Assembly (NCBI GenBank): GCA_030620115.1
Contig: JAUXFG010000036.1
Span: 1-30,257 of the forward strand
DNA from: Candidatus Fermentibacterota bacterium
Lineage (GTDB): Bacteria; JAFGKV01
Direction of reading: 5' to 3'
DNA length: 30,257 bases
Below, in pieces: positions 663-17,958 of this stretch. The notes below the pieces were generated by a model that made no database searches, was not told where the DNA came from, and worked only from the letters and a program-made list of their open reading frames with translations. Each line of letters opens with the position of its first letter. The stretch's first letter is position 1. The translations under genes were made by a program, and so were the position numbers.

Positions 663-1079
663 TACGGGTGAGATCGAACTTCGTCGGACCTCGAATCCGC
701 CGGCTGGCGGAAACATCGAATGTGAGGAGGGATTGGGGCATTGGGAATATGCAACCGCCAACCAACGACTCACAACCGACATAAGGGAGATGGGTACAGG
801 TGCTGTGTCATTCTGAGGAAGTGAAGCGACCGAAGAATCTGGGTGGGGCGGTGAAGGGGAAATGCGATAATTGGGGATTGGGCGGATTGAATGTTTCCGC
901 CAGCTGGCGGATTCGATGTTCACGTCGCTGTGGCGCATATGCCGTTTGGTACAAATGCAGGCGGAGGGAATCGCCGTGGTGTCATGGATGCCCAATAGTC
1001 TTCCAAGGAGAGAGAAGGGGGGAGCATCCATAGCGACGAACTGACGGGTAGTCTTCAAGGGGTGAGAAAGGGGGTCGCG
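663..1079. repeat. Gene-free gap with palindromes and a single family A unit
   Basis: This 417-bp gap holds a 16-bp palindrome TCCGCCGGCTGGCGGA at 696-711, a second (TCCGCCAGCTGGCGGA) at 896-911, and one right-hand family A unit at 805-848. The sequences around the two palindromes (691-716 and 888-914) are reverse complements of each other, so they form a large inverted pair around the family A unit. I see no convincing promoter or conserved small gene. Confidence 0.7.
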
Positions 1080-3143: not shown

Positions 3144-3148
3144 AATGC

Positions 3149-3345
3149 ACGGATCTATTGAGAAGTTGCCGGAGAATATCGTGAAGGTTGTCTTGATATC
3201 GCATCACAACCGTGAATTCATCCGCTGGAGGGCCACGCTCCGTCGTGGCCGCCTGTGCCGCATACCGCGGACGCGATGAAACGCGTCCCTCCATCATACA
3301 AAGCGAAAGGGGGAGAAGGTTGGATACACGGATCTATTGAGAAGT
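3149..3345. repeat. Family B cloverleaf-like repeat (copy B1)
   Basis: The element starts near 3181 (GAAGGTTGTCTTGATATC) and ends near 3345 (CGGATCTATTGAGAAGTT). Its core, 3226-3293, has an outer stem TGGAGGG/CCCTCCA enclosing two hairpins, GGCCACG-6nt-CGTGGCC and GGACGCG-6nt-CGCGTCC. The 20-bp tail CACGGATCTATTGAGAAGTT also occurs at 3148-3167, just after the preceding stop codon, suggesting the remnant of a tandem copy. Related copies lie at 16069, 17630 and 17815, with a fragment near 10383. Confidence 0.85.
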
Positions 3346-3362
3346 TCGGGTTAGGGTAGAAT

Positions 3363-3552
3363 GGGTTAGCCCGCACTTCTCACCGGCTCTCGTCGCGAAG
3401 CGGTGAAGTTGGCTGTGGCCGCAAGGCTTGCGACCGAGGACCCCGCAGGCGTATCCCCTGCGATACGGTGAGGAGTCCGAAGGAGCGTAACGCAGCAGGC
3501 AGGGCCAAATGCAACGCTGCAGCAGATGGCCGGTGAGAAATGCGGGTTAGGT
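3363..3552. repeat. Family C element with terminal inverted repeats (copy C1), MITE-like
   Basis: About 185 bp bounded by inverted ends: GTTAGCCCGCACTTCTCACC at the left (3365-3384) and CCGGTGAGAAATGCGGGTTAG at the right (3530-3550), which are near reverse complements. The interior is not coding. A second copy at 26776-26979 shares both ends and the internal GGCTTGCGAC and GGCGTATCCCCTG blocks; a left-end fragment sits at 9974-10003. The size, inverted ends and lack of an ORF fit a non-autonomous element. Its right end abuts the RBS of the next gene. Confidence 0.8.
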
Positions 3553-3574
3553 AGCGTAGAACAGGGGGTTGATC

Positions 3575-5653
3575 ATGCGCATGAAGGGTAGGCCTACAAT
3601 GGCATTCATGGTTGTGCTGATAATGAGCAATTCTGTTCTAGCGACGGCCGCATACGCAGAGGCGACGTCGATCCAAGAGATCGCGGAGCGGCGATACGCA
3701 GTCCACCACAAGGGATTGCAGTGGCTGGGGATGAGCAATGAGGGCGTTTTCGTGCCTACCCCGGGCGAGAGTCTGTGGGTGCCGGAACTCGAATATCCAG
3801 GGGGGAGCGGAACAGTATTCCTGTACTCGGGGGGACTCTGGGTCGGCGCGCTCAAGGACGGCCGCGCGATTGTATCCGGCGCTTCGGATTTCGACAATGG
3901 CACCAATGAATTCGGCCAGTTGGAGTATGGCACGGTTGATGATATGGCTAACGAGGAGATACGGAGCATAGGCTGGCTCGAGAAGAGTTCCGATCGAGTG
4001 ACTGCCGAGGATCAGGAGAATGCCAAGAAAGAAGGGCGCTATCTTGGAATGGGCGTCTTGGGCGTCGACGATGATAACGACGGGCGCGTCGACGAAGATC
4101 CCGCGGGTGATATATCAAACGACTTCATAGACAACGATGGCGACGGACTTGTGGACAGCGCTGATCCGGACCTTGACGGAGACCAGGTTCCTGGGAGTCT
4201 GGATGATGACGGCGATGGACTGGAAGATGAAGACGACTCCGCGCGGGCAGCTCAAGAGCTGATCACCGCATATGTGGACACCTGTGCCGACTGTCTCGAA
4301 GCAGAGGACGGCGATGGCTTCAAACCCCTCGGTATTCGGGTTGTCCAGCACTCGTATCAATGGATCGAGCCCTACGCCGACGATTTCCTAGTGATGAGGT
4401 ACGATATTTCAAACATCGGCGCCGACCTCTTGGAGGAGGTTTGTTTCGGCATGTTCTTTGACTTTGATGTAGGCCACATGAGTCAGACGGGCAGCGAGCG
4501 CTGTGAGGACGACTATGCATACTATTATGACGACCTCAAGATTGCTGTAGGGGCCGACAATGATGGAGATGAGGGCCTGCTTTCATCTCTCGCTTTTGGG
4601 GTACGCTTCATCGAGACGCCGGTATCTGATCCCCAAACGAGCTATCTGAATTTCAATCGACTTTCTGGTGGCGAACCGATCGATGACTTGGCGAAATACA
4701 TGATGATGTCTTGCGGCCGGCGGTATGGGGATAAGAAAGAAGAGGCCGACTGGAGAATGATTCTCGCCATTGGCCCCCTCGGCGATCTTGCCCCTGGTGA
4801 GACCATGGGGGCAACAATAGCCATTGTGAACGGCTTTGATGACGAACATCTCAGGTATGCCTCGATCATGGCGGAGAAGATGCTGGACCCTGAATTCAAA
4901 GGGCCTACTGCCCCGGAAGCGCCGATCTTCTTGAGTCAAGCCGGAAACAAACAGGTCACGATCAAGTGGAAGAACAATGCCGAAACGGCCCTGGACCCAG
5001 CCCTAGGATCAGTGGATTTCCAGGGGTATAACATTTGGCGCACAGGCGATGGTGAGACTTGGACATTGGTGTCGACCTATGATCTGCCGGACACTCTGGG
5101 ACTCAATGCCGGATGGCCTCCTCCCGAGAGTCTGGATGAGGACTACAATTATGAGGTCGTTGATGAAGGGCTCATGAATGGGGCGAGACTGAGCTACGTG
5201 GTGACGGCGTTTGACAACGGCCACAACGGAGACGGGATTCATCCAGAGCCTTGGGATCAGCAGCATAGCTGTGTCGGTGTTCTTGAGTCGAGTCGCGAAG
5301 AAGAGTTCTGGCTGACGGTAATACCAGCGGCATCGACACAAGCGGAAGGCGTTCTGGACAGTGTCTATGTTGTTCCCAACCCATACATGGGCTCTTCGAG
5401 GCTCGAGGGGTATGGCCGGGATGGAGAGAGAAGTCGTCAGATCGACTTTCGCGGGTTGCCGCCGGTTTGTGAGATAGCGATCTACACATTGGCGGGGGAT
5501 TTCGTACAGGAGCTTTTTCACACCAACGGCCTTTCGTGGGAGAGTTGGGATTTGAGGAATGAAGAGGGTCGGGAAGTTGCCGGTGGGATCTACCTGTATC
5601 GAATAGGGAGCGAGGGAAACGAGCGGATCGGCAAGTTTGTGGTGGTGAAATGA
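3575..5653 (+). CDS. Secreted protein with Asp-rich calcium-type loops and a FlgD/T9SS-type C-terminal module (paralogue 2)
   Basis: About 692 residues, paralogous to the gene at 1080 over the whole length. Possible starts are TTG 3569, ATG 3575 and ATG 3581; AGGGGG at 3563-3568 is spaced best for 3575. The signal peptide is MRMKGRPTMAFMVVLIMSN ... ATAAYAEA. The mature part begins with the same IQEIAERRYAVHHKGLQ block as its partner. Three acidic loops (DDDNDGRVDED, DNDGDGLVDSAD, DDDGDGLEDEDD) sit at the same place, followed by ITAYVDTC. The C-terminal module (VVPNPYMGSS ... IYTLAGDFVQELF ... GIYLYRIG ... GKFVVVK) is almost identical to that of paralogue 1, far closer than the rest of the protein. 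It is probably exported and anchored or sorted by that module; the function is unknown. Confidence 0.88.
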   Translation: MRMKGRPTMAFMVVLIMSNSVLATAAYAEATSIQEIAERRYAVHHKGLQWLGMSNEGVFVPTPGESLWVPELEYPGGSGTVFLYSGGLWVGALKDGRAIVSGASDFDNGTNEFGQLEYGTVDDMANEEIRSIGWLEKSSDRVTAEDQENAKKEGRYLGMGVLGVDDDNDGRVDEDPAGDISNDFIDNDGDGLVDSADPDLDGDQVPGSLDDDGDGLEDEDDSARAAQELITAYVDTCADCLEAEDGDGFKPLGIRVVQHSYQWIEPYADDFLVMRYDISNIGADLLEEVCFGMFFDFDVGHMSQTGSERCEDDYAYYYDDLKIAVGADNDGDEGLLSSLAFGVRFIETPVSDPQTSYLNFNRLSGGEPIDDLAKYMMMSCGRRYGDKKEEADWRMILAIGPLGDLAPGETMGATIAIVNGFDDEHLRYASIMAEKMLDPEFKGPTAPEAPIFLSQAGNKQVTIKWKNNAETALDPALGSVDFQGYNIWRTGDGETWTLVSTYDLPDTLGLNAGWPPPESLDEDYNYEVVDEGLMNGARLSYVVTAFDNGHNGDGIHPEPWDQQHSCVGVLESSREEEFWLTVIPAASTQAEGVLDSVYVVPNPYMGSSRLEGYGRDGERSRQIDFRGLPPVCEIAIYTLAGDFVQELFHTNGLSWESWDLRNEEGREVAGGIYLYRIGSEGNERIGKFVVVK

Positions 5654-5661
5654 TTTAGGCG

Positions 5662-5708
5662 CTTTGTGGCGCGACATCACAATCTTATATCGATGTCGCG
5701 CCACAAAG
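5662..5708. terminator. Perfect 17-bp stem-loop after paralogue 2
   Basis: CTTTGTGGCGCGACATC (5662-5678) and its exact reverse complement (5692-5708) flank a 13-nt loop, beginning 9 bases after the stop codon. There is no U-tract afterwards (GGGGCTAAT follows), so it is not a canonical intrinsic terminator. It may act as a bidirectional or processing hairpin, or be one more dispersed palindrome. Confidence 0.6.
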
Positions 5709-5815
5709 GGGCTAATACTGTGCCTGAATGTTTAGGGCTCAGTGCTGCCTTCTCTTCTTAGCTCTTACTAACCTTGAACCCTGAACCCCTCAATCCCCCC
5801 GAAGGGAGTATCCGG

Positions 5816-7018
5816 ATGCGCGAGATCGGCGTAACGTTTCAGGAGCTTGACGCGAATGATCGCGAGACGTTGAGGGATCTTCTCAGCTACTCGTTTATTC
5901 TGACAAGAGAGCAGATCAACGATTGGATCTCGGATGATTACCCGCTGGATTGGATCCTGGCAGGATATGCGGGCAAACGCCTCGTGACCAGCACCGCCAT
6001 CCTTCCCCTTGAGATGCAGGGCCAGGGACGGCGAGAATGGCTGGGGGGGATCAGCGGGGTGGCTACCGATCCCTGCTATCGCGGCAAGGGGCTGGCGCGG
6101 GATCTCATGAGAGAGTCTCTGGACAGGATGCGAGCAAGGGGTTGGAAATGGGCAGTCCTCTACCCCTTTGACTATGAATTCTACCACAGACTGGGGTGGG
6201 GGCAGGGCGCCACGGCTGCGCGGCTCACACTGGAGCCTCGGCATCTACCGTCGGCCTGTGGTCAGGGAGAAGAAGGCGAATACCGCCTTGTGTCCACGGA
6301 AGAATGGTCCCTCCTGGATCGTATTCACAGAGTATGGGTGCAGAGAGGGCCTGGAGCTCTGGTGCGAGAGGAACGAACCTGGCGGCAACTGTTCTCGCGC
6401 CCAGATCGCAGGCGCGAAGCACTGGTATGGGAGAGCCCCGGCGACCAAGGAGCGGGATATGTGATTTATGACCTGCAGCGAAGAGAGGTGGATGCGAGAC
6501 TTGAGGCTTCCCTGTTGGTAATCGACTGGGCATGGGAGTCGCCGGAAGCACGAGCCGCGTTGCTAACCTACCTTGTGCGTCACCACGGCCAGGTGGGGTC
6601 CATGCACATGAAGGTTTCCCATGACGATCCCCTTACCAATGTTGAGGGAAATGGAGTGACCAAGCGCTCGATTCGGGGTCCCATGGTACGGATTGTAGAT
6701 CTAGGTGGCTTCCTGGAGCGACCTCCTTCCTATGACGGAGAACGGATTACGCTTCTTGTGGAGGATGCGCTTTGTCCGTGGAACAATGGTCTGTTTTGGC
6801 TTGCTCCCGGAGAGGCACAACTGATGGGTGGCCCATGTGAATCCGGCGAGCCGGATCTCCATATTGGTATCGGCGCGTTGTCTTCGATCCTTTGGGGGAG
6901 CCTGTCCGTGGAGACTGCGCTCTCATGTGGTCTGGTCAGCGGCCCGAGGCAGGACCGGCTTGGTCTGCTGAGCCCCCTCCTGCCCATGAGTGCGCCGTTC
7001 TTCCTGGATTGGTTCTGA
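5816..7018 (+). CDS. GNAT family N-acetyltransferase, Eis-like
   Basis: About 400 residues, the usual length for Eis-type enzymes, which transfer an acetyl group from acetyl-CoA to amines. The GNAT acetyl-CoA loop is clear at residues about 80-98: GVATDPCYRGKGLARDLM, followed by AVLYPFDYEFYHRLGWG, the signature of the Eis subgroup. The C-terminal part (PFDY onward, then a domain ending GLLSPLLPMSAPFFLDWF) fits the second GNAT-like and SCP2-like domains of Eis. The open frame continues upstream to a TTG at 5774, but GAAGGGAG is well placed before the ATG at 5816. No signal peptide, so cytosolic. It stands alone between two hairpin-containing gaps. The natural substrate cannot be read from sequence; aminoglycoside modification is known for some family members but not implied here. 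Confidence 0.88.
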   Translation: MREIGVTFQELDANDRETLRDLLSYSFILTREQINDWISDDYPLDWILAGYAGKRLVTSTAILPLEMQGQGRREWLGGISGVATDPCYRGKGLARDLMRESLDRMRARGWKWAVLYPFDYEFYHRLGWGQGATAARLTLEPRHLPSACGQGEEGEYRLVSTEEWSLLDRIHRVWVQRGPGALVREERTWRQLFSRPDRRREALVWESPGDQGAGYVIYDLQRREVDARLEASLLVIDWAWESPEARAALLTYLVRHHGQVGSMHMKVSHDDPLTNVEGNGVTKRSIRGPMVRIVDLGGFLERPPSYDGERITLLVEDALCPWNNGLFWLAPGEAQLMGGPCESGEPDLHIGIGALSSILWGSLSVETALSCGLVSGPRQDRLGLLSPLLPMSAPFFLDWF

Positions 7019-7029
7019 CCTTCTTGAGC

Positions 7030-7149
7030 GATCAGCCGTCAGCCGGAGAGAGGAGAAGGCCTGGGCATGGTTTGCCGGCCGGCTGATCCCCCGGGATGGC
7101 AGGCAGGCCTCCGGCTCGTAGAGCCTACGCCTCGGAGAGGACGCCTGCC
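7030..7149. repeat. Two inverted repeats in the gap after the acetyltransferase
   Basis: GATCAGCCG (7030-7038) pairs with CGGCTGATC (7080-7088). GGCAGGC (7098-7104) pairs with GCCTGCC (7143-7149), enclosing a smaller GGCTC-GTA-GAGCC hairpin. No U-tract follows either. They may serve as weak termination or mRNA-end structures. Confidence 0.45.
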
Positions 7150-7175
7150 CCACTATCCCTGGTGAGATGTCCGGG

Positions 7176-9176
7176 ATGAATCCAAGAACTCTCTCGGGCA
7201 AGATGAGGACTTGGATAGGCTTCGCGCTTCTTGTCGTGGCGCTGCATGCCGGCGTGCCTATGACCGCATTCGCGGCGAGGGAAGACGTAGATCACATGGA
7301 AAAGGTGAGGGAGATCCTCGTTTTTCTCGAGCGCGGAAGACCCCGGGACTTGTACCTTGCACGCAAGCGTGGTCAGGCGCTTGTTCGGAAATACCACGAA
7401 TGCGACGAGTGCCTTCGGGTTCTCGCCAGGGCGCTCAAGAGGAGCGGGATGTTCAGTGAGTCAGCGCGGTATTGGCGCAGGCTTCTCGAACGAAAACCTG
7501 AAGATTTTGAGGCGTTGCTGGCGTTGGCTGACTGGCGAACGGCAGACGGTATGCGCTATCTGAAGATGGAGAGCGGCCCTATCTCACTGTCACGGTTTGG
7601 AAAGCAGGATATCGAGTCAGCGCTGGAGTATCTGGAGCGCCTCCGTGCGACGCCGGATGGCAGGGAGGTGGCGCTTCTCCGGTTGGGGGAGCTGGCGCTC
7701 ATCCTGGAGAACTGGCCTGATGTTGTTCGCTACGCCGCCCCGATAGCGGATCCCTCATTTATTGCCAGGGCGCGAGCCCTTGAGGGAACTGCCTTGACGC
7801 GCCAAGGCGATCTGGAGGCGGCCAAAGATGAGTTCTCCCTTTTCCTTGAGGTTGCCTCTGATTCGATGCGACAACTCTACAATGACCCGATCGCCTTTTT
7901 CTCCTCGCGACATCTCCTGTTGGACGGGGATGTCGACAGCCTCGTAGCCGATCCGGCGGCCTGGGGGGACAAGGATCCTCGGCTTCTCACCGAGCTCAAC
8001 GAACGATTGCTGGAGCACTATGCGAGAGTCACCATGGCTTCGGTTCGGTGTGCCACGAAGCCGGGGGCTTGGGATGGGTGGCGTACCCAACCAGGGGTTC
8101 TGATGATCAGATACGGAGAGCCGTTGGCCGAAAGGAGGGTCCGTCCCGAAATGGGGGCGGATGGACGGGTGGTCTATGAGAAGCTCCAGTACCAGTACGC
8201 TCAGACTATGGTGAGCTTCGAGGATCCGACCCTGATGGGCCGCTTCCAGCTTGGCGGGGCGTTTTCCGATGATCCCTTTGCCTACGCCGAGGTAGCTCGG
8301 CAGATCGACCGTACCCGTGAGATCTATGATCCCCATATGGGCAGAGCGCCGCTGGAGATCTCCGTTGGCCTCTGGACTATCCCCCGGGGTGACCAGTCAC
8401 TTTTGGTGGCTGCTGCCGATATCCCCCGTGGTGAGCTGAGATTCACTGCGCAGTCGCATGGGGAACCCCAGGCGCTTGTTCGATTGGCCACACGTGTTGC
8501 CGAGCGGGGCAAGGAAGCCGGTGAGCTCATCTCGTCGGAGCATCTCCTTCAACCAGGCGATGCGCGGGGATGCATCACATCGCCGAGCTTGAGTCTTTCG
8601 TTTCTCGATACCCTTTCGCCCGGCATATGGCACCTCTCCATGGAACTGGAGGATGGAGTGTCAGAAAGATGGGCGCGGATAGACACCACGCTTCATCTTT
8701 TCGCGAAAGAAGGCAAGCCCCCGTTTCTCTTTGGGCCCATACCATGCTGGAAGGGCATATCTCCCACACCGCCAAAATCACTGCTGGAACATAGTGGCCT
8801 TCGTCCGACGTCGCTCCCGGTTGCCGCGGGGCGCGGTACTGTGGTGATGTATTTCGAGGTTCAGGGGCTCGCAAGAGATCGCTGGAATCACCATTATTGT
8901 GATCTCAGCTACTCCGTACAGCGCGTGGTCAGTCGCTCATGGCTTGGCCGGCTATTCCACCGGAGCGATGCCCCTGCCGTTACCGCCAACATCGAAACCC
9001 AAGGCTTCGGCTCGTCCCTCATTTCTCATTTTGAGCTGGAGCTGGAGAAGGCCAGTGCGGGCACGTATGAGCTCTTCCTGCAGTGCTTCGATGCCCTGAC
9101 GGGCAGGAGCGCCCATGGACGTCTTGAACTGGAGGTCTGTGGAGAGGAGGAAGGAGGGGGAGAGGGGGGGAATTGA
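7176..9176 (+). CDS. Secreted GWxTD-domain protein with a helical repeat N-terminal half
   Basis: About 666 residues. An ATG at 7167 and one at 7176 are both in frame; GGTGAG is too close to the first and well spaced for the second. The signal peptide runs to about AFAAREDV (hydrophobic GFALLVVALHAGVPMTAF). Residues about 40-250 are TPR-like helical pairs (RVLARALKRSGMFSESARYWRRLLERKPEDFEALLALADW). Around residues 290-370 lies a region like the GWxTD domain: DGWRTQPGVLMIRYGEP, then YQYAQTMVSFEDPTLMGRFQLGG. The GWxTD family is widespread in Gemmatimonadota, Eisenbacteria and relatives; its function is not established. The C-terminal part looks beta-rich. The gene ends in a purine-rich stretch next to repeat families D and A. 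Confidence 0.75.
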   Translation: MNPRTLSGKMRTWIGFALLVVALHAGVPMTAFAAREDVDHMEKVREILVFLERGRPRDLYLARKRGQALVRKYHECDECLRVLARALKRSGMFSESARYWRRLLERKPEDFEALLALADWRTADGMRYLKMESGPISLSRFGKQDIESALEYLERLRATPDGREVALLRLGELALILENWPDVVRYAAPIADPSFIARARALEGTALTRQGDLEAAKDEFSLFLEVASDSMRQLYNDPIAFFSSRHLLLDGDVDSLVADPAAWGDKDPRLLTELNERLLEHYARVTMASVRCATKPGAWDGWRTQPGVLMIRYGEPLAERRVRPEMGADGRVVYEKLQYQYAQTMVSFEDPTLMGRFQLGGAFSDDPFAYAEVARQIDRTREIYDPHMGRAPLEISVGLWTIPRGDQSLLVAAADIPRGELRFTAQSHGEPQALVRLATRVAERGKEAGELISSEHLLQPGDARGCITSPSLSLSFLDTLSPGIWHLSMELEDGVSERWARIDTTLHLFAKEGKPPFLFGPIPCWKGISPTPPKSLLEHSGLRPTSLPVAAGRGTVVMYFEVQGLARDRWNHHYCDLSYSVQRVVSRSWLGRLFHRSDAPAVTANIETQGFGSSLISHFELELEKASAGTYELFLQCFDALTGRSAHGRLELEVCGEEEGGGEGGN

Positions 9177-9216
9177 ACATCGAACATCGAACATTCAACA
9201 CTCAACATCGAAGTGA
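9174..9216. repeat. Family D short-period repeat (GAACATCGAACATTCAAC)
   Basis: A degenerate tandem of about 9-10 bp units (AACATCGAAC/AACATTCAAC) begins at the stop codon of the preceding gene. Similar stretches occur at 15221-15254 and 17771-17813, each followed by GTCGAA or ATCGAA and often GAGGATGA. Confidence 0.8.
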
Positions 9217-9235
9217 GGATGACGGAGGGAGGATG

Positions 9236-9350
9236 TAGGAGAGATTCTTCGCTCCTATCGGTCGCTCAGAATGACAGTGGTAGCGTGCAGAAGTAGGTGG
9301 CAGTACGTGTCATTCTGAGGGAGCGAAGCGACCGAAGAATCTGGGGGGGG
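9236..9350. repeat. Family A inverted pair (copy A3)
   Basis: Left unit 9236-9275 and right unit 9307-9350 are near reverse complements. The right unit ends one base before the 3' end of the minus-strand gene at 9352, so it may form part of that transcript's end. Confidence 0.88.
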
Positions 9351-9351
9351 T

Positions 9352-9726
9352 CTATTGGTTGGGTGTGGTGCTCTCGAGCATACGCCGGATTTCTTTGATC
9401 TGCTGGTGGAGTTGCTGCAATGAAACAAGCCGGTCACGGTGGATCTGCAATGATTCGCGGATGGGTTCGGGATCGTCGGGAATGGGGAGGATGTGTGAGC
9501 CGAGAAGCGTGTACGCCTTTGATACCAAAGAATGGGTACCCGGCTCATCAGGCCAGCAGAGCGAATAGGCAAGTTCTATCTCCAGCTCACGAATAAAGCA
9601 GGTTTCCTCCTTCAATGCGTCGCTGATCTTGTCCTCCAATCTCTGCAGTGCCCTATTCCGCAATTCATGCGGCAGGTCGGCCGAGCGCCATCGATGGAGC
9701 TCTCGATGCATATCTATCGACTCCAT
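9352..9726 (-). CDS. Small helical protein of unknown function
   Basis: 124 residues. An ATG at 9726 (reverse strand) is preceded by GGAGG with 7 bases spacing, one of the best ribosome sites in the window, so I use it over the longer open frame that continues to 9987. That upstream extension would translate a GATCGG/CATCGG simple repeat into an Arg-Ser/Cys run and is not credible coding. The protein is predicted mostly helical with charged heptad-like runs (LRNRALQRLEDKISDALKEE and LHQQIKEIRRMLES at the C-terminus). It has no signal peptide. Size and helicity recall small four-helix-bundle proteins, but I see no diagnostic motif. It is the only minus-strand gene in the first 27 kb. Confidence 0.65.
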   Translation of the reverse strand: MESIDMHRELHRWRSADLPHELRNRALQRLEDKISDALKEETCFIRELEIELAYSLCWPDEPGTHSLVSKAYTLLGSHILPIPDDPEPIRESLQIHRDRLVSLQQLHQQIKEIRRMLESTTPNQ

Positions 9727-10434
9727 GTTCTTTCCTCCGTCTCGTGTGTCGGTTATTCTTTCTCCTCCACAATATCCTCGGGATCGGCATCGGGATCGGC
9801 ATCGGGATCGGAATCGCGATCGGCATCGGAATAAGCCGGCCCGTGGTTCGCCTTCATCAGACATCCAGGCTCTTGTGACCGAAAACCATGTGATCACATC
9901 TCGATTCGATTTCGATTCCGATAGCGATCCCGATCCCGATGAAGGAGGAGGATATTCTTGCCAAGGATGCCGTCCCGCACTTCTCACCGGGTTTCGTCGC
10001 GAGAGGGTCGAGATGTATCCTTGCTGTCAGGTCTTGTTTGGGCGTCGCTCCGGTGGTTGACGTTAGTCGTCAATTCGATCTTGCACACCATGCATCGTAT
10101 GGTTAAGCTGCTCCACTCCAATAATGCAAGTATGGAGGAATCGGGAAGAAAAGCGAACCACAGATTACACAGATTGGGAGAGGAGATTGGGAGAAGGATT
10201 TGGGGGATGGGAGAAGAGAGCGTTCAGCGTTCAGATGATGGAACTTGGATGTAGGAGAGATTCTTCGCTCCTTGGAGTCGATCAGAATGACAGTGGTAGT
10301 GCGTAAATGGATGTGAGCATGTGTGTCATTCTGAGGAAGCGGAGCGACTGAAGAATCTGGGTGGGGGATGGGAAGCGTTCAGATGAGGATGATGGAGGGC
10401 CATCGCGCCTTATTTGATACAGAGAGGTTTTGGA
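9727..10434. repeat. Gene-free gap packed with repeat fragments
   Basis: From left to right this 708-bp gap contains: a GATCGG/CATCGG simple repeat (9779-9834) whose reverse-complement type (GCGATCCCGATCCCGAT) recurs at 9925-9941; a left-end fragment of family C (9974-10003); a family E stretch (AACCACAGATTACACAG, 10156-10192); a GCGTTCAGCGTTCAGATGATGG block (10222-10243); a family A inverted pair (10253-10368); and a fragment of the family B start (GATGATGGAGGGCCAT, about 10387-10402). The thrS RBS follows directly. No gene or clear sigma70 promoter was found. Confidence 0.75.
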
Positions 10435-12246
10435 ATGATGAAGAGAAGAGAGATGCCTGAGTCGCTTAAGCGGATTCGGCACTCACTTGCGCATATACTG
10501 GCTGAGGCAGTGTTAGAGATACGTCCCAAAGCACAGCTGGGATTCGGGCCGGCCACTGATACCGGGTTCTTTTATGATTTTCTCCTGGAGGAGCCGATAG
10601 GGGCAGATGAGCTCCCGGCCATAGAAGAGCGAATGAGGGAGATCATCAAGAAGGGCATCTCTTTCGAACGCCAGGAGTTTTCACCTGAGGAGGCCGTGGC
10701 GCTGCTGGAGGAACGCAGTGAGCAGCTCAAGATAGAGTACTGCAAGGATCTTGTGGAGGTTCAGGGCCAGACCTCGCTGAGCTTCTATCAATCGGGGAGC
10801 TTTTTGGATATGTGTGAGGGGCCGCATGTTGAGAAGAGCTCGCAGATCCGTACGAATGCCTTCTCGTTGGACAGCGTGGCCGGGGCATACTGGCGGGGAG
10901 ACGAATCACGGCCTATGCTCACCAGGATCTATGGCCTGGCCTTCGAAAACAGTAAGGAGCTCCGGGAGTTCAAGAGGCTCCGGGAGCTTGCGAAACAGCG
11001 AGATCATCGGAAGCTTGGTCGAGAGCTGGAGCTCTTCTTTATCTCCGACCAGGTCGGTCCCGGCCTGCCGCTCTGGCTGCCAAATGGCGCCGTGCTCATC
11101 GAGGAGATCGAGAAGCTCGCCAAGGAGATGGAGTTCCGCTATGGCTATGTGCGTGTCGTCACACCGGAGATCACCAAAGGCGCACTCTACAAGACCAGCG
11201 GCCATCTCCCCTACTACAAGGACAGCATGTTCCCCCCCATGAAACTGGAGGGTGAGGATGACTACTATCTGAGGCCCATGAACTGCCCGCACCATCATAT
11301 GATCTACGCGTCACGTCCTCGCAGCTATCGAGAACTCCCCCTGCGGTTGGCGGAATATGGGCACGTCTACCGGTATGAGAAATCCGGCGAGCTGGCTGGG
11401 TTGCTGAGAGTACGCAGCATGAATATGAATGATTCGCACATGTACTGCATGCCCGATCAGGTGAAGGGTGAATTCTTGCGCGTGCTCGAGCTTCACAAGT
11501 TCTACTATGATCTATTTCGCATCGAAGACTACTGGGTACGGCTCTCGTTGCACGATTCGGATTCGTGGAAGTTCGCCGGGAATGCCGAAACGTGGGCACG
11601 AACAGAGGCCATGGCGCGGGAGGCCTTGGAGGAATCGGGGTTCCCCTTTGACGAGGTTGCAGGCGAAGCCGCGTTCTATGGACCAAAGGTTGATCATCAG
11701 ATGAGCAATGTTGTTGGTCGTGAAGAGACCGTGTCAACGACTCAGCTTGATCTCGTCATGCCTGAACGCTTCAATCTTACCTATATCGGCCCTGATGGGA
11801 AGGAACATCGCCCCGTCATCATCCATCGTGCGCCGCTTAGCACGCACGAGCGATTCATCGCCTTTCTCATAGAGCATCTTGGCGGCGCTTTCCCCACATG
11901 GCTTGCACCAGTGCAGATACGTGTGTTCCCTGTAGGTGCGGATCAAGAGGAGTACGCAGCCAACGTGGTGGAGACATTTCGTGACAAACTGCTAAGGGCA
12001 GAGCTCGACACCACATCCGAGAGCCTGAACAAGCGCATACGGAACGCTGAGCTTGCCAAGATCCCGAATATGCTCATCCTGGGGGCGCGTGAGCAGGAGA
12101 ATGGCACGATCACATGGAGACGTAAGGCCGTGAAGGCGCAAGCAACGCTTCCCGTGGAAGAATTCGAGAGAATCGTGTTGGATCTACGAGATCGACGGAC
12201 CATGGACAATTTTGCGGATGTGAAGGTTCCTGGTTTTGCTGAGTAG
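10435..12246 (+). CDS. thrS: Threonyl-tRNA synthetase lacking the N-terminal TGS domain
   Basis: About 603 residues; charges tRNA-Thr in the cytosol. AGAGG precedes the ATG at 10435; a TTG at 10414 is also in frame but lacks this spacing. The protein starts almost directly in the editing domain: HSLAH (H16, H20) and CEGPH (C127, H131) give the HxxxH/CxxxH zinc-type site that clears Ser-tRNA. The usual 60-residue TGS domain is absent. In the catalytic core the zinc ligands are present: C284 in PMNCPHH, H335 and H464 in IHRAP. Motif 2 reads RSMNMNDSH where E. coli has RGFTQDDAH, so the loop is divergent. The anticodon-binding domain (WLAPVQIRVFPVG ... IPNMLILGAREQENG) is complete. It heads a run of four closely packed genes. 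Confidence 0.95.
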   Translation: MMKRREMPESLKRIRHSLAHILAEAVLEIRPKAQLGFGPATDTGFFYDFLLEEPIGADELPAIEERMREIIKKGISFERQEFSPEEAVALLEERSEQLKIEYCKDLVEVQGQTSLSFYQSGSFLDMCEGPHVEKSSQIRTNAFSLDSVAGAYWRGDESRPMLTRIYGLAFENSKELREFKRLRELAKQRDHRKLGRELELFFISDQVGPGLPLWLPNGAVLIEEIEKLAKEMEFRYGYVRVVTPEITKGALYKTSGHLPYYKDSMFPPMKLEGEDDYYLRPMNCPHHHMIYASRPRSYRELPLRLAEYGHVYRYEKSGELAGLLRVRSMNMNDSHMYCMPDQVKGEFLRVLELHKFYYDLFRIEDYWVRLSLHDSDSWKFAGNAETWARTEAMAREALEESGFPFDEVAGEAAFYGPKVDHQMSNVVGREETVSTTQLDLVMPERFNLTYIGPDGKEHRPVIIHRAPLSTHERFIAFLIEHLGGAFPTWLAPVQIRVFPVGADQEEYAANVVETFRDKLLRAELDTTSESLNKRIRNAELAKIPNMLILGAREQENGTITWRRKAVKAQATLPVEEFERIVLDLRDRRTMDNFADVKVPGFAE

Positions 12247-12250
12247 ACAG

Positions 12251-13153
12251 ATGTTCACTCCGATGCGAGGGCTTGCTTTTCTGGGAGTCGTTTTCCTTCT
12301 CCTCGGCTCCGAAGAAGCCACTGATTTCTCGACCTCGCCTGCGGACACCTCATTGGAGGCAGATTCCACTGCAGCGACCGATACGGTCACGGTTGAGTCT
12401 ATGGAGAGCGTGGCTGATTCCTCTGTGACCAAGGGCCTGTCGTGTCCGGGGAGACCTGATTCGCTGGTCAATCGAGCCTTCGGGCTGGGTGAGAGGCTCG
12501 TATTCAAGATCAAATACGCGGGAATCACCGCGGGCATTAGTACCATTGAGGTTGCAGATACCGTACGATTGGACGGCCACCTCTGCTATCGAATCGATAA
12601 TAGGACACAGTCCTCTAAAACCTTCAGCGTATTCTATAAAGTTGATGACCGGACGAGCGCGTGGATGGATGTAGAGGAGTTCGTGAGCCGGGGGTTCGAG
12701 AAGCATCTCAGGGAGGGAGATTACAAGAAGGACACAGAGGTGTGGTTCGATCAGGAGCATCAGATAGCTCGCTACCCCCTGAAGGATGAGCAGGTCGAGG
12801 TTCCCCCCTGCGTGATGGATGTATTCTCCGCGCTGTTCTATGTACGACTGTTGCCGTTGGATGTGGGTATGGAGGTCGAGTTCGACAACCATGACAATAA
12901 GAAGACATATCCGCTGGTGGTGAAAGTTCTTAAGCGAGAGTTGATCAAGGTCGAGGCCGGCGCTTTCCGGTGCCTCAAAGTTCAGCCGCTTTTGAGAACC
13001 CCAGGTCTATTCAAGCACGAAGGCAAGCTCTGGGTATGGTTGACTGATGACGCTTCGCACATGCCCGTTCTCATGAAGAGCAAGGTAGCCGTTGGTTCAG
13101 TCAATGCCGAACTGGCTGAGTTCTCACGAGGGAAGCTCCTGCACGATGGCTGA
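12251..13153 (+). CDS. DUF3108-type exported protein
   Basis: About 300 residues. The ATG at 12251 lies 4 bases after the thrS stop; a second ATG at 12263 (MRGLAFLG) is also possible and neither has a strong RBS, so translation may be coupled to thrS. A signal peptide (RGLAFLGVVFLLLG) is followed by a low-complexity Ser/Thr/Asp linker (residues about 20-60). The rest matches the DUF3108 pattern: LGERLVFKIKYAGITAGISTIEV near the start of the domain, YKVDDRTSAWMD, and KHEGKLWVWLTDDASHMPVLMK near the end. The family is periplasmic, beta-rich and of unknown function, often beside envelope genes. It overlaps the next gene by 8 bases. Confidence 0.85.
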   Translation: MFTPMRGLAFLGVVFLLLGSEEATDFSTSPADTSLEADSTAATDTVTVESMESVADSSVTKGLSCPGRPDSLVNRAFGLGERLVFKIKYAGITAGISTIEVADTVRLDGHLCYRIDNRTQSSKTFSVFYKVDDRTSAWMDVEEFVSRGFEKHLREGDYKKDTEVWFDQEHQIARYPLKDEQVEVPPCVMDVFSALFYVRLLPLDVGMEVEFDNHDNKKTYPLVVKVLKRELIKVEAGAFRCLKVQPLLRTPGLFKHEGKLWVWLTDDASHMPVLMKSKVAVGSVNAELAEFSRGKLLHDG

Positions 13154-14096
13154 TCTCGACTTCAGTAAGATAAGGACCCACTCGCTCCACGGCGCCCACC
13201 GAACGGTCCATCGTCATCAGTATGCCAAGGCCATGGAGCCAGGGGCCACGGTTGCGCAGTATATCGAGTCGCTTCCCAAGGTTTTGGCGGTAAAGGACCT
13301 CACTGCCTTGGCTATTGCCATTGTCGAGGCCAGGCGACGAAACCGGCCGGTGCTCCTTCAATTCGGAGGGCATGTGATAAAATGCGGTCTTGGTCCACTG
13401 ATCATCGATCTTCTCTCAAGAGGATGGGTGACGGCACTTGCAGTGAATGGTTCAGTTGCCATCCATGACCTGGAATTCGCCATGGTGGGGGCCACCTCAG
13501 AGGATGTCGCCGGCAATCTGGAGCGTGGCGATTTCGGCATGGCGCAGGAAACGGCGTCCTTCATGAATCGAGCGGCGGTGGCGGGAAGATCAAAGGGGTT
13601 TGGTTTGGCGCTGGGTGAGCTCATGGAGAAAGAGAAGCTAACCTATGCCCATGAGAGCGTGATCGCTGCTGCAGTACGGATGGAGCGCCGAATAACGGTA
13701 CATGTTGCCATTGGGACAGATGTGGTGCACCAGCATGACGGAGTGGACGGCGCCGCGCTTGGCGCGGCGACATTGGCTGATTTTCAGGCCTATTGTGGGG
13801 TGGTGGCCGATCTCGACGGTGGCGGAGTTGTGGTGAATGTCGGCTCTGCGGTGATACTGCCGGAGGTATTTCTCAAAGCGGTATCAGTATCCCGAAACCT
13901 CGGCTACAAGGTGCAAGATTTCACCGCAGCCAATCTCGATATGATCAGGCACTATAGGCCCTCCACGAATGTGATCGGGAGACCGGTCCAAACCAGAGGA
14001 AGAGGCATCAACATTACCGGGCATCATGAGCTGGTATTCCCACTGCTCCACCTCATGATTCTTCACTATTCCACGCACGTGCAGAGCGGAGGCTGA
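13146..14096 (+). CDS. Conserved protein distantly resembling deoxyhypusine synthase
   Basis: 316 residues from ATG 13146, which overlaps the previous stop codon (ATGGCTGA) and has GAGGGAAG upstream. The fold-level resemblance to deoxyhypusine synthase is in the order of blocks: GGHVIKCGLGPLIIDLLSRG, then ALAVNGSVAIHDLE, then ITVHVAIGTDVVH, then GGGVVVNVGSAVILPEVFLKA. The NAD-binding type Rossmann layout fits, but the catalytic WGK lysine motif of true deoxyhypusine synthase is not present at the expected C-terminal place, and bacteria lack eIF5A. I therefore give no enzyme activity. The placement between an exported protein and a GDP-mannose enzyme, with one-base spacing to the latter, suggests an envelope or nucleotide-sugar link (inference). 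Family assignment is moderate. Confidence 0.6.
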   Translation: MADLDFSKIRTHSLHGAHRTVHRHQYAKAMEPGATVAQYIESLPKVLAVKDLTALAIAIVEARRRNRPVLLQFGGHVIKCGLGPLIIDLLSRGWVTALAVNGSVAIHDLEFAMVGATSEDVAGNLERGDFGMAQETASFMNRAAVAGRSKGFGLALGELMEKEKLTYAHESVIAAAVRMERRITVHVAIGTDVVHQHDGVDGAALGAATLADFQAYCGVVADLDGGGVVVNVGSAVILPEVFLKAVSVSRNLGYKVQDFTAANLDMIRHYRPSTNVIGRPVQTRGRGINITGHHELVFPLLHLMILHYSTHVQSGG

Positions 14097-14097
14097 G

Positions 14098-15174
14098 ATG
14101 TTCTATGGCGTGATTCTTTCGGGAGGCAGGGGAGAGCGGCTTTGGCCTGTCAATCGGTGGGACTACCCGAAGCATCTTCTGGCGCCGATTGATGGGGAGT
14201 CCATGCTTGAGAAGAGCATCAGGCGCATCGAGTCTTTAGTGGCGCCCAAGCATGTGATTATTGTCACGCATCAGAATTTCGCCGGCGCCATCAAGGAGCA
14301 TCTCCATGGAAGACTGGAAGTGGGGGATCTCATTGTTGAGCCTGAAGGGAAGAACACCGCGGTGGCGATCGGGTTGGCCGCGCTGAAGCTCCTCAAGCAA
14401 AATCCCAATGCCATCATGTTTGTGCTTCCGGCTGATCACCATGTGGGCGAAGAGGATAGATGGCTTCAGGCCTTGCGAACCGCCGCACGGCTTACGTTGG
14501 AAGGGGACAATTTTGTCACCATTGGCGTGAACCCGACTCGCCCGGAGCCAAGCTATGGCTATATCGAGATGGGGAAGCCGCTGGTCGATCAGTATGAAGT
14601 TCCCGTGTTCAGGATGGCAGGATTCAAGGAGAAGCCGACCAAGGAGGAAGCGGTCGCTTTTTTGGCCCGTGGCAAGTACCTCTGGAACAGCGGGATGTAC
14701 GTATGGAGAGCCGACAGCTTGATGGACGCTCTCAAACAGCACATGCCGGAACTTCACGGAGGGCTGATGGCCATTGCCGATGACCTTGGGACCGAGAGAG
14801 AGTTGGATGCGCTTCGAGGACTCTATACACGCATCGGCAATGTGTCGATAGACTACGGAATCATGGAGAAGGTCAAGGGAGTTCTTGTGATCCGTGGGAG
14901 CTTTCTGTGGGAGGATTTCGCCGATTGGGAGACCGTGGCCCGGGTCCAGGCCGGAGATGCACAGGGGAACGTGACGAGGGGTACTACCGTGACGCTGGAT
15001 TCACACAGCAATCTTGTCTGGTGCGAGGATGGTGTTGTGGCGACCCTGGGAGTTCAGGATCTCATTGTGGTGAAAAAACAAAACGCTGTCCTGGTCTGCC
15101 GCCGAAACAGGGCAGAGGATGTGAAAAATGTGGTGGCGGAGTTGAGAGAGAAGGGACTGAGCGAGTTGGCGTGA
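14098..15174 (+). CDS. manC: Mannose-1-phosphate guanylyltransferase
   Basis: 358 residues, the length of the single-domain form without a fused phosphomannose isomerase. It makes GDP-mannose from GTP and mannose-1-phosphate in the cytosol, for surface glycans. The nucleotide-binding signature GGRGERLWP is at residues 9-17, followed by YPKHLL. Further family landmarks are LPADHHV (metal Asp), PSYGYIE, FKEKPT, YLWNSGMYVW, DYGIMEK and WEDFADWE. The ATG is one base after the previous stop codon, with GCGGAGG at the right distance. It ends the thrS-led run. The symbol is by family; cpsB and manA-type names are also used. Confidence 0.93.
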   Translation: MFYGVILSGGRGERLWPVNRWDYPKHLLAPIDGESMLEKSIRRIESLVAPKHVIIVTHQNFAGAIKEHLHGRLEVGDLIVEPEGKNTAVAIGLAALKLLKQNPNAIMFVLPADHHVGEEDRWLQALRTAARLTLEGDNFVTIGVNPTRPEPSYGYIEMGKPLVDQYEVPVFRMAGFKEKPTKEEAVAFLARGKYLWNSGMYVWRADSLMDALKQHMPELHGGLMAIADDLGTERELDALRGLYTRIGNVSIDYGIMEKVKGVLVIRGSFLWEDFADWETVARVQAGDAQGNVTRGTTVTLDSHSNLVWCEDGVVATLGVQDLIVVKKQNAVLVCRRNRAEDVKNVVAELREKGLSELA

Positions 15175-15700
15175 GGGGAAACGCTGGAATGGGGGGATGG
15201 GGACTGGGAGATTTGGGGAAATGAACATCGAACATTCAACATACAACGTCGAAGTATCGAATGAGGGATTGAGGGGGAAGAATCTGGAATCTGACAATCT
15301 ATAATCTGCCAATCTTGGTTGGGGATGGGAGAAGGAAGCGTTCAGGGTTCAGCGTTGAGATGAAAGAACGAGGAGAAAGGAGAGATTCTTCGCTCCTGTG
15401 GATCGCTCAGAATGACAGGGGTGGTTTGGGTTGGGCGTCTCTGCACACGTGTCATTCTGAGGGAGCGGAGCGACTGAAGAATCTGGGTGGGGGGGAATGG
15501 GGAGAAGAGAGCGTTCAGCGTTGAGATGATGGAACGAGGAACAGAGAGAAATCTCCACTAAATCTATGGATTTACTAGAGATTTCCGAAACCACAGATTA
15601 CACAGATTGGGAGAGGAGATTGGGGGATTGATTGGGAGATTGAACATCGGATGGAAGAGTGGGGAATGGGAAGCTGACAGATGACCCTAGGGAGGAGACC
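15175..15700. repeat. Gene-free gap with repeat mosaic
   Basis: In order: a family D stretch (15221-15254); AATCT-type short tandem (AATCTGGAATCTGACAATC, about 15279-15315); GCGTTCAGGGTTCAGCG block (15331-15357); a family A inverted pair (15379-15494); another GCGTTCAGCG block (15512-15530); a 38-base imperfect hairpin (15548-15585); and a family E stretch (15588-15625). The order family A, TTCAGCG block, family E partly repeats the arrangement seen at 10156-10368. No coding sequence is credible here. Confidence 0.75.
15548..15585. repeat. Imperfect hairpin of 8+6 bp
   Basis: GAAATCTC-CAC-TAAATC, loop TATG, then GATTTA-CTA-GAGATTTC. The arms pair except for a symmetrical 3x3 internal mismatch. 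It sits immediately upstream of the family E repeat. Confidence 0.6.
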
Positions 15701-16072
15701 ATGAAAGGAGAGCGGATGGGCGGGATAGTGGTACGGATTATCCTGAATGGCGTGGCGCTCTATGTTGCCGCCAACATCGTTCCAGGGATACGGTTCACGG
15801 GGAATCTCGGGGATTTGCTCATCGCCGGGCTTCTCTTCGGCGCCATGAATGCGGTGATCAAACCCCTCTTGCTCATTCTCTCGTTTCCTTTGCTCATCGT
15901 CTCCTTGGGGCTGTTCTACTTCGTGGTCAATGCCATCATTCTGCTTCTCTTGGCAGGCCTTATGCCCACACTCTCCATCAGCGGTCTCTGGGCCGGCCTC
16001 GTGGGGAGCCTGGTCATCAGCGTGACGAACATCCTGCTCCACTGGGCCCTAAGGAATAACTCCCCATCTTGA
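15701..16072 (+). CDS. Small integral membrane protein, phage holin family 4 type
   Basis: 123 residues from the ATG at 15701, preceded by GGGAGGAG. Four hydrophobic segments are visible: IVVRIILNGVALYVAANIVPG, DLLIAGLLFGAMNAVIKP, LLLILSFPLLIVSLGLFYFVVNAIILLLLAGLMP and LWAGLVGSLVISVTNILLHWAL. The pattern of a GIRF motif after helix 1 and NAVIKPLL before the long central hydrophobic stretch is that of the PF04020 family, named after holins but common in bacterial chromosomes with no lysis role shown. No phage genes are nearby. Its stop codon TGA lies in the CTTGATATC that begins a family B repeat, so the last codons may have been remodelled by the insertion. Confidence 0.85.
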   Translation: MKGERMGGIVVRIILNGVALYVAANIVPGIRFTGNLGDLLIAGLLFGAMNAVIKPLLLILSFPLLIVSLGLFYFVVNAIILLLLAGLMPTLSISGLWAGLVGSLVISVTNILLHWALRNNSPS

Positions 16073-16222
16073 TATCCCATCATAATGAATTCATGCGCTG
16101 GAGGGCCACGCTTCGTCGTGGCCGCCTATGGTGCTGATGCTGCGGACGCGACGGAGCGTGTCCCTCCATAGTACAAAGCAAAAGGGAGAGAGGGCTGGAT
16201 GCACTGGCCTATTGACAAGTTA
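16069..16222. repeat. Family B repeat (copy B2)
   Basis: Shares with B1 the start CTTGATATC, the GGAGGGCCACGC / CGTCGTGGCC hairpin, the GGACGCGACGGAGCG arm, CCCTCCAT, ACAAAGC and the tail CTATTGACAAGTT. The TTGACA in the tail has no matching -10 box. Confidence 0.85.
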
Positions 16223-16234
16223 CCTCCTGGCCAA

Positions 16235-16348
16235 GTGGCGCAGGTCAGTGGCGCAGGTCAGTGGCGCAGGTCAGTGGCGCAGGCGTCCCTGCCTGCGATC
16301 TTCCCCTGCCTGCGATCTTCCCCTGCCTGTGATTCTCCCCTGCCTGCC
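16235..16348 (+). repeat. Two adjacent tandem repeat arrays
   Basis: Array 1 is a 13-bp unit GTGGCGCAGGTCA repeated 3.8 times at 16235-16283. Array 2 is a 17-bp unit CCCTGCCTGCGATCTTC repeated 3.6 times at 16287-16348, with the last units diverged. The units of the first array are identical, which suggests recent slippage. The arrays end about 20 bases before the RBS of rnhC. Confidence 0.9.
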
Positions 16349-16378
16349 AAATGGCGAAATAGCAAGAGGTGATAAGAA

Positions 16379-17632
16379 ATGAGCGCCAAGAAGAGCGCAC
16401 TATCACCTGAACTGGGCACACTCGTCGAGGACCTGAAGCTGGAGGCGGCCGAGAAGGGTCTCCTCCTCAATGCCGATAAACTGGAATATGGGTATCGACT
16501 CTACTTCCCTGGGGGCGGGAATAGAGGCTCGTTCAGCATCTACTACAGCCCCCGCCGCCGTCGCTATAGTCTTGTGGCGCCGGAGCTGATCGATCCCGAT
16601 CTGATCCCATTGGTGGAGTTGTCGGCCGCCAGAACCGGGGCAGCTTCGCCCTTCCAGCAGCAGAAGCTCAAGGAGGAGTTCACCAGTTGGGAATCGGTTC
16701 TCAGCGACAACCCTATGCTCAGTCGACACATTGCCGACAAGCTGTCTGATCTGCAGGCTGCCGGCTACTTCATGTCGGATTTCAAGAAGCTCCAAGGAGG
16801 CGTTCAGTTGGAGCTTCTCAAAGATGAGACGCCGCTCAAGATCAATCTGTACGCAGGCAAGGATGGGCGGATCAAGGTTGTTCCCTCAGGGAAGCGAACC
16901 AAGGAGCGTGTGGAGGTCGCCGCTCTTTTGGCCTCAGATGTATCCGCCAAGGAGACCCTTCCGAAGGGCGAACAGAAGCTCGACACGTGGATAGGGACCG
17001 ATGAAGCAGGAAAAGGTGACTACTTCGGGTCCCTGGTGGCTGCGGGATTCCTTACGGATTGGGCTATTGCGGAAGAACTGGAGGGCATGGGCCTGACGGA
17101 CAGCAAGCGGATGAGTGACAAACGTCTCCTGAAGCTTGTGAAGTTTCTCTGGGGCAAGTACCCGGATCGCTGTGTCGTGGTTGAGATTACCCCCACGCGG
17201 TACAATGAGCTTTATGATGGCTTTCGTGGCAGCGGTGGGAAGCTCAATCAACTTCTCGGGTGGGCCCATGCCCGGGTGATCCGGGAATTCCATGGCAAGG
17301 CGAGCTTCGCGGCGGTGGTGATCGACCAATTTGGCGCATCATGGAATATCACCCGGCACCTGCAGGAGGCCAAGGACGTGAAGCTTCTTTTACGTCCGCG
17401 GGCGGAAAGCAATCCCGCGGTGGCTGCGGCCTCGATCCTCGCCCGCGCCCGCTTCCTCCGGCGCCTGGAGAAGCTCTCCGAGGAAATGGGAATCGACCTC
17501 CCCCCCGGTGCGGGCCAGAAGGTAATCGATGCAGGCAAGGCCCTGGTGGAGAAGCATGGATCGGACGCCCTGTCTCGGGCCGCAAAGCTCCATTTCAAGA
17601 CCACCGAGAAGATAATGGAAGGGTTTGACTGA
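16379..17632 (+). CDS. rnhC: Ribonuclease HIII with an enlarged N-terminal region
   Basis: 417 residues, about 100 longer than the usual enzyme, which cleaves RNA in RNA-DNA hybrids. The catalytic domain begins with GTDEAGKGDYFG (residues 206-217), the RNase HIII form of the DEAGRG motif, giving D208 and E209. VVIDQFG and ESNPAVAAASILARARF supply the further acidic residues, and KLHFKTT closes the domain. The N-terminal part normally holds one TBP-like substrate-binding domain. Here two similar stretches occur, about residues 38-68 (YRLYF ... SIYYSPRRRRYSLVAP) and 141-171 (VQLELL ... INLYAGKDGRIKVVPSG). AGAGGTGA precedes the ATG. The stop codon TGA is also the first bases of a family B repeat. 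Confidence 0.93.
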   Translation: MSAKKSALSPELGTLVEDLKLEAAEKGLLLNADKLEYGYRLYFPGGGNRGSFSIYYSPRRRRYSLVAPELIDPDLIPLVELSAARTGAASPFQQQKLKEEFTSWESVLSDNPMLSRHIADKLSDLQAAGYFMSDFKKLQGGVQLELLKDETPLKINLYAGKDGRIKVVPSGKRTKERVEVAALLASDVSAKETLPKGEQKLDTWIGTDEAGKGDYFGSLVAAGFLTDWAIAEELEGMGLTDSKRMSDKRLLKLVKFLWGKYPDRCVVVEITPTRYNELYDGFRGSGGKLNQLLGWAHARVIREFHGKASFAAVVIDQFGASWNITRHLQEAKDVKLLLRPRAESNPAVAAASILARARFLRRLEKLSEEMGIDLPPGAGQKVIDAGKALVEKHGSDALSRAAKLHFKTTEKIMEGFD

Positions 17633-17735
17633 AGGTTGTTCTGATATCGTATCACAACCGTGAATTCATCTGCTGGAGGGCCATGCTCCGTCGTGGCCGC
17701 AGATGCCCGATACAACTGACGCGATGGAGTGCGTC
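17630..17735. repeat. Family B repeat (copy B3, 3' truncated)
   Basis: Begins TGAAGGTTGTTCTGATATC and continues through GGAGGGCCATGCTCCGTCGTGGCC and GACGCGATGGAGTGCGTC, then diverges after CTCTCC. It begins exactly at the rnhC stop codon. Confidence 0.8.
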
Positions 17736-17770
17736 TCTCCAGAGATGCCGATGAACCGGCAATTGGGAGA

Positions 17771-17935
17771 AATGAACATCGAACATCCAACATTCAACAT
17801 TCAACGTCGAAATGAGGATGATGGAGGGCCATGCTCCGTCATGGCCGTTGATGCTCGATGCGGCGGACGCGACGGAGCACGTCCCTCCATCATACAAAGC
17901 AGACGCGGGATGGATGCGCGGACTCATTGAGGATT
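17771..17935. repeat. Family D stretch followed by family B copy B4
   Basis: GAACATCGAACATCCAACATTC (two short units, 17771-17813) joins at GAGGATGATGGAGGG a family B core at 17820-17900 with both hairpin arms (GGCCATGCTCCGTCATGGCC and GCGGACGCGACGGAGC). The tail is diverged (CGGACTCATTGAGGATT). An open frame runs through this block into the next gene but is not counted as coding. Confidence 0.75.
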
Positions 17936-17958
17936 CGCTAGATGTGGAGGATAACGAG

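Follow-up and report, generated by a model that had tools for sequence, protein, structure and literature searches.

GGAG-tagged REPINs, a linked RAYT gene and an IS66-type MITE in a genome of Candidatus Fermentibacterota

The BIMEs of E. coli pair two different REP types (Y and Z) in inverted orientation. In the described REPIN/RAYT systems, inverted REP doublets occur as hairpins, mostly between genes and also in ordered tandem clusters, and the RAYT gene is flanked by its own REPs (PMC3116915, PMC2817692). The tags have been described as GT(A/G)G (PMC2817692, PMC6006769) and as CGTC (PMC3733652). In structure 4er8, E. coli TnpAREP is in complex with a REP hairpin (PMC8266576), and the motif W94 Q95 ... 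E100 H101 ... R104 has been discussed as the guide-recognition residues (PMC6006769; partly PMC8266576). Elements of the IS66 family have GTAA ends and 8-bp target duplications (PMC11946415, PMC3281130).

Here, we analyzed a dispersed repeat in a stretch of 30,257 nucleotides (the window), which comprises all of contig C211 in the genome of Candidatus Fermentibacterota bacterium (4.10 Mb in 296 contigs, 98% complete). The repeat is a known kind of element: a short palindrome with a 4-nt tag on its 5′ side, present as an inverted doublet in many copies, with REPs of the family on both sides of a RAYT gene. The inverted hairpin doublets, their tandem clusters and the flanked RAYT gene resemble the REPIN/RAYT systems (PMC3116915, PMC2817692), but GGAG takes the place of GT(A/G)G as the tag, the arms differ between the two halves, and the host lineage is sparsely sampled. 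With the GTAG and CGTC REP super-families (Di Nocera 2013, PMC3733652), the family shares short palindromes, a 4-nt end tag and the PVC group, whereas GGAG is not among the tags described there. The GGAG tag was not encountered in the literature examined, and the dual association, with an IS66-type MITE as well, is unusual. The original prediction had named a REP or a MITE, and both apply: the core is a REPIN, and one sub-lineage lies inside an IS66-type MITE.

Structure and distribution of the REPIN core

The copies in the window have the following features.

3146..3346, plus strand: copy 1, MITE-embedded REPIN (truncated composite), beginning 3 nt past the stop codon of ORF 1062-3143
3146..3169, plus strand: piece of a TIR of the right-end type, TGCACGGATCTATTGAGAAGTTGC, at the left of copy 1
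3226..3250, plus strand: copy 1 REP half A, TGGAG-GGCCACG.CTCCGT.CGTGGCC
3269..3293, minus strand: copy 1 REP half B, TGGAG-GGACGCG.TTTCAT.CGCGTCC
3322..3346, plus strand: copy 1 MITE right end GGATACACGGATCTATTGAGAAGTT
10382..10403, plus strand: fragment GATGAGGATGATGGAGGGCCAT, the tag and part of one arm only
16069..16223, plus strand: copy 2, MITE-embedded REPIN, whose own TGA (16070-16072) terminates ORF 15659-16072
16099..16123, plus strand: copy 2 REP half A, TGGAG-GGCCACG.CTTCGT.CGTGGCC
16144..16168, minus strand: copy 2 REP half B, TGGAG-GGACACG.CTCCGT.CGCGTCC
16197..16223, plus strand: copy 2 MITE right end GGATGCACTGGCCTATTGACAAGTTAC
17630..17741, plus strand: copy 3, REPIN with a MITE-lineage left flank (TGAAGG...TGAATTCATCTGC) and without the right MITE part
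17674..17698, plus strand: copy 3 REP half A, with the intermediate arm CCATG/CGTGG (T.G pair)
17717..17741, minus strand: copy 3 REP half B, decayed (TGGAGAGACGCACTCCATCGCGTCA)
17812..17938, plus strand: copy 4, REPIN whose A arm is canonical and whose MITE right end has diverged
17822..17846, plus strand: copy 4 REP half A, TGGAG-GGCCATG.CTCCGT.CATGGCC
17865..17889, minus strand: copy 4 REP half B, TGGAG-GGACGTG.CTCCGT.CGCGTCC
17912..17938, plus strand: copy 4 diverged MITE right end GGATGCGCGGACTCATTGAGGATTCGC

All four predicted copies were located (cores 3226-3293, 16099-16168, 17674-17741 and 17822-17889), and the fragment predicted near 10387 is present as a 22-nt match but has no hairpin. 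The element itself supplies the stop codon for two upstream genes (copies 2 and 3), the TGA of copy 3 (17630-17632) terminating ORF 16379-17632. The listed ORF 17812-19668 begins inside copy 4; for this gene, which is lipoprotein-like and peptidyl-prolyl isomerase-like, the true start probably lies near 17960. Other repeats were also observed in the window: TGTCATTCTGAGGAAGCGAAGCGACCGAAGAATCT, often as inverted pairs (74-108, 806-840, 9242-9342, 10253-10358, 15378-15484 and 21915-22113); GAACATCGAACATCCAACATTC..., recurrently beside REPIN copies (9166-9229, 15214-15277 and 17765-17828; also in L023 and L027); and GTTAGCCCGCACTTCTCACCGGCTCTCGTCGCGAAG... (3365-3460, 9974-10015 and 26776-26871), which adjoins the right end of copy 1.

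The canonical REP half A (TGGAG-GGCCATG.CTCCGT.CATGGCC) and half B (TGGAG-GGACGCG.CTCCGT.CGCGTCC, on the opposite strand) are 25 nt each and alike consist of the GGAG tag, a 7-bp stem and a 6-nt loop. The tag, the first stem bases and the loop are common to both, and the three stem pairs that differ are compensated in both. With GGAG in each half, the family falls outside the GTAG-tagged REP super-family, which has a GTAG or GTGG tag. A and B form facing pairs of 61-71 nt in all 37 aligned copies. Within the genome, BLASTN with the 3226 core yielded 51 matches (E ≤ 0.01), of which the best apart from the core itself had an E-value of 3e-27. A covariance model of the kind proposed in the original prediction, built from the 37 copies, gave 146 rows at E ≤ 0.01, or about 140 places after subtraction of both-strand duplicates. 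Both counts far exceed chance expectation. REPIN arrays with a period near 97 bp are found on contigs C160, C56, C195 and C210. Among 60 genomes (including that of the window), the core matched only in G001 and G002, which belong to the same family, and weakly in one distant genome; the other genomes share no rank with it below the domain, and the lineage is thus sparsely sampled.

The predicted outer stem around two hairpins is borne out, as the outer TGGAG/CTCCA and the two 7-bp arms are paired in 97.3% of cells over the 37 copies, compared with 33-52% when slid. Because the outer stem is formed by the two inverted tags (TGGAG with CTCCA), it is present in any inverted REP pair. The A loop is complementary to the B loop, and many copies are therefore able to fold as one long imperfect hairpin. 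The pairings of the predicted cloverleaf are conserved, but in single-strand DNA folding it is the minimum-energy fold only for the 3226 copy among the four in the window. One long hairpin is favored for the 16099 and 17822 copies, and the 17674 copy folds no better than shuffles.

Changes on both sides of a pair over the 37 copies are confined to a T-A to C-G pair of the A arm and one B-arm cell. The A-arm pair is C-G in 15 copies and a T.G intermediate in 4, the latter state being seen in the flank-bearing 17674 and C95 copies and in one copy of the C160 array. Free REPINs have the CCATG/CATGG arm and canonical loops (all 18 aligned copies that lack both the MITE-lineage flanks and the MITE right end are of the canonical type), and copies with MITE-lineage flanks mostly have the CCACG/CGTGG arm (C-G) and mostly a drifted B loop, TTTCAT. 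Since the A-arm change coincides with the MITE-flank lineage, compensation within the genome comes close to one two-step event that was then copied. The compensatory arm changes of the original prediction are therefore real but thin, the A-arm change being essentially a single event in one copied lineage. In G001 and G002, 150 TGGAGGG-N16-CC sites were picked without regard to pairing; 32 of these listed sites are fully paired, compared with about 2-3 after shuffling (maximum of 8 in 2000), and they comprise seven different arm pairs. The hairpin is better supported by covariation between genomes than by changes within one.

A RAYT gene in a REPIN array and the association of its clade with the GGAG tag

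A RAYT-like enzyme elsewhere had been suggested as a possible mobilizer, and such a gene was found on contig C160 inside an array of the same repeat. The profile NF047646 matches at C160:20724-21095 with 93 bits (cut-off, 80), and the corresponding ORF (C160:20652-21131; L128:1429-1908) encodes 159 aa. The array consists of about seven REPINs, two to three upstream and four to five downstream; its growth could be due to tandem duplication instead of RAYT action. The HUH motif (DHVH) and Tyr129 are intact, and H69, H71 and Y129 are invariant in 29 relatives. The AlphaFold model (mean pLDDT 87) is structurally closest to 4er8 (Z 13.9, rmsd 2.3 over 129 residues). A profile score over the cut-off, the HUH motif, the catalytic Tyr and the 4er8-like fold together assign the protein to the RAYT family. 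It is an HUH/Tyr enzyme with the same fold as E. coli TnpAREP (4er8; PMC8266576), but the E. coli system combines GTAG with His101 and a bulged stem, whereas GGAG, Thr115 and perfect stems are found here.

Other genes were considered as the partner and rejected. A genome search with PF01797 gave four Y1 genes, none flanked by the GGAG repeat, and missed the C160 RAYT. The C200 RAYT is flanked instead by its own GTAG-GTCGGGTTA REPs, the Y1 genes on C187 and C118 encode DnaA_C-type proteins without a flanking GGAG repeat, and that on C241 looks broken and has no such repeat beside it. The C200 locus (C200:12724-13170; L033, L124), with GTAG-GTCGGGTTA...TAACCCGAC REPs on both sides, represents a second REP-RAYT system in the genome, and RAYT fragments beside the GTAG-GTCGGGTTA REP also occur on C146 and C94. 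At C118:13885-15000 (L032), the DnaA_C-type RAYT gene is followed by an IS66-type right end (C118:14930-14940), and GGGGTCAGATCTTTAATGT inverted repeats flank it. A close GGAG-clade RAYT was not found in G001 or G002 (best identity, 30-34%) despite the TGGAGGG REPs there.

Most of the best 80 RAYT relatives in species-representative genomes come from Verrucomicrobiota, Kiritimatiellota, Lentisphaerota and Planctomycetota, and the clade of the C160 RAYT, with the GGAG tag in its REPs, also occurs mainly in these four phyla. In a count of hairpins with a perfect stem (7 or more) up to 700 bp from each RAYT gene, the tag before the stem was GGAG at 20 loci, GTAG at 40 and both at none; the RAYTs of the GTAG loci are the more distant ones, and the GGAG call at L164 is probably a GTAG locus, judged by its other hairpins. 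A maximum-likelihood tree built from 83 RAYTs requires 3 changes of the tag, compared with 16.7 for shuffled labels (none of 500 shuffles was as low), and one of the three hinges on L164. Since this tree is weak in its deep branches and includes four very long rows, it does not establish a single origin.

Alignment to 4er8 places W94 Q95 ... E100 H101 ... R104 at W108 Q109 ... D114 T115 ... R118 of the C160 RAYT. At the position equivalent to H101, all 35 GTAG relatives have His, whereas none of the 16 rows of the main GGAG clade that cover it does; these have Thr, Arg or Tyr. Two Verrucomicrobiota RAYTs (L165 and L169) have apparent GGAG-tagged hairpins yet keep His, and residue 101 is thus a correlate of the tag and not a strict determinant or a proven switch. 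Next to the guide-contact residue there is a W/F difference, but W is also found in E. coli with its GTAG tag, and this position was not retained as a determinant of the tag. A guide-like contact in which the CTCC loop pairs with the GGAG tag was rejected since GTAG REPs have no equivalent (loops such as GGT, GCT and TGT). Heterotypic pairs are only a tendency of the GGAG clade, identical arms being found in 0 of 28 GGAG and 10 of 43 GTAG cases. In the open literature, the main texts on REP and RAYT that were searched, PMC3733652 included, do not mention a GGAG tag (an earlier description elsewhere is possible), and a search for RAYT with GGAG returned only unrelated texts.

The IS66-type MITE and its autonomous element

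Alignment of the longest copies revealed additional conserved flanks and a terminal motif, ATTGAGAAGTT, which has 54 exact hits in the genome compared with 1 for the reversed control and often occurs as inverted pairs about 95-130 bp apart. The 8 flanking bases are identical at 7-8 positions in 11 of 21 elements but in only 1 of 420 cross pairings (three mismatches allowed in the motif search). The duplication is perfect (8/8) in six solo MITEs, which are about 100-130 bp long, and in an IS on contig C57. One composite of MITE and REPIN, on C189 (279 bp), has a 7/8 duplication and is the only composite that keeps a near-complete one.

The C57 IS (C57:12173-14819; L082:474-3120) is 2647 bp long; its 13-bp ends are perfect, as is its 8-bp duplication. 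It encodes a 293-aa DruA/DUF4338-like protein (Pfam, 116 bits) followed by a 496-aa IS66 transposase, whose gene is the only DDE_Tnp_IS66 match in the genome. The C57 IS and the MITEs alike are bounded on either side by the TIR GTAACTTCTCAAT. The composite lineage thus has the TIR in common with an autonomous element and the 8-bp target duplication of an IS66-type MITE. The TIR starting with GTAA, the duplication and the DDE_Tnp_IS66 domain agree with the IS66 family and its derived MITEs, whereas the DruA/DUF4338-like gene beside the transposase and a MITE with a REPIN passenger set this element apart. In the window, the MITE right end is kept in copies 1, 2 and 4 and the MITE-lineage left flank in copy 3; copies 1 and 2 belong to the composite lineage, copy 3 keeps the left flank, and copy 4 has a diverged right end.

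A literature search for DUF4338 or DruA together with IS66 found none. Two more DruA-like genes were seen in G001 (L227 and L230), each followed by a frame with IS66-like motifs by eye, and the DruA-IS66 transposon arrangement may be recurrent.

Proposed spread of the repeat and alternative explanations

The GGAG-tagged REPIN is very probably copied in trans by the C160 RAYT, with one lineage embedded in an IS66-type MITE that is moved by the C57 transposase. The core is a REPIN in which the diverged REP hairpins A and B are inverted, each with the (T)GGAG guide tag on its 5′ side. The C160 RAYT would cut single-stranded DNA beside the hairpins, probably where it is exposed at replication, and so copy REPINs in trans. 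Under the published guide model (PMC8266576), the retained A3G4 of GGAG would select CT. Separately, one REPIN would have come to sit in a non-autonomous IS66-type MITE, and the composite would subsequently have been spread by the C57-encoded transposase with the REPIN as a passenger, its REPs drifting. The repeats with their structure and copy number, the linkage to the RAYT, the association between tag and RAYT, the TIRs and the target duplications are observed, and we infer the activity of the RAYT on GGAG REPs, this order of events and the movement of the composite by the IS66-type enzyme.

The whole family could instead be a MITE of an IS66-type element, the hairpin pair being merely internal and the C160 RAYT coincidental. 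The MITE right end in many copies, three of the four in the window included, and the clear TIRs and target duplications agree with this, but we consider it improbable: the copies without MITE flanks or right end are all canonical, the C160 RAYT sits among MITE-free copies, solo MITEs have no hairpin pair, and the tag and the RAYT clade associate across phyla.

A structured RNA or transcript-end element (terminator, mRNA stabilizer or processing site) under selection at gene ends is just as improbable. The prediction that the repeat abuts gene ends holds for three window copies, which start at most 3 nt from a stop codon or include it (stops ending at 3143, 16072 and 17632), and the hairpins are possible on both strands. 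However, no orientation bias relative to ORFs or toward 3′ ends was seen in a rough ORF-based look at 26 copies, of which 14 lay between ORFs and 12 within frames, most of them short or doubtful. Rfam at the gathering score found only tRNA in the window and no family matching the repeat, and tandem arrays surrounding a RAYT together with near-identical dispersed copies form the pattern of a mobile element. A role in mRNA has been proposed for E. coli REPs, and a similar secondary role is compatible with the family described here. Least probable of all is spread mainly through recombination and tandem duplication without transposition, since, regular as the four arrays are, most copies are single and at unrelated loci, and target duplications accompany one composite and the solo MITEs.

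Trans copying by the RAYT, with an IS66-type MITE carrying one lineage, remains the preferred reading. Beyond this genome, there is probably, with moderate confidence, a PVC-centered REP-RAYT branch with a GGAG guide tag and matching changes in the guide-contact loop, tag and enzyme having switched together, whose REPINs can be captured by the MITE of an unrelated DDE transposon, so that two spreading mechanisms act in one genome. It is poorly understood what directs a RAYT to its REPs and cleavage sites; altering tag bases shifted the cleavage site in one system where it was tried (PMC8266576), and a natural GGAG clade with a changed guide-contact residue provides ready pairs for testing the code. 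As the MITE-borne lineage shows, RAYT activity can be overestimated when only repeats are counted, and a set of "compensatory" differences between copies can stem from a single event multiplied.
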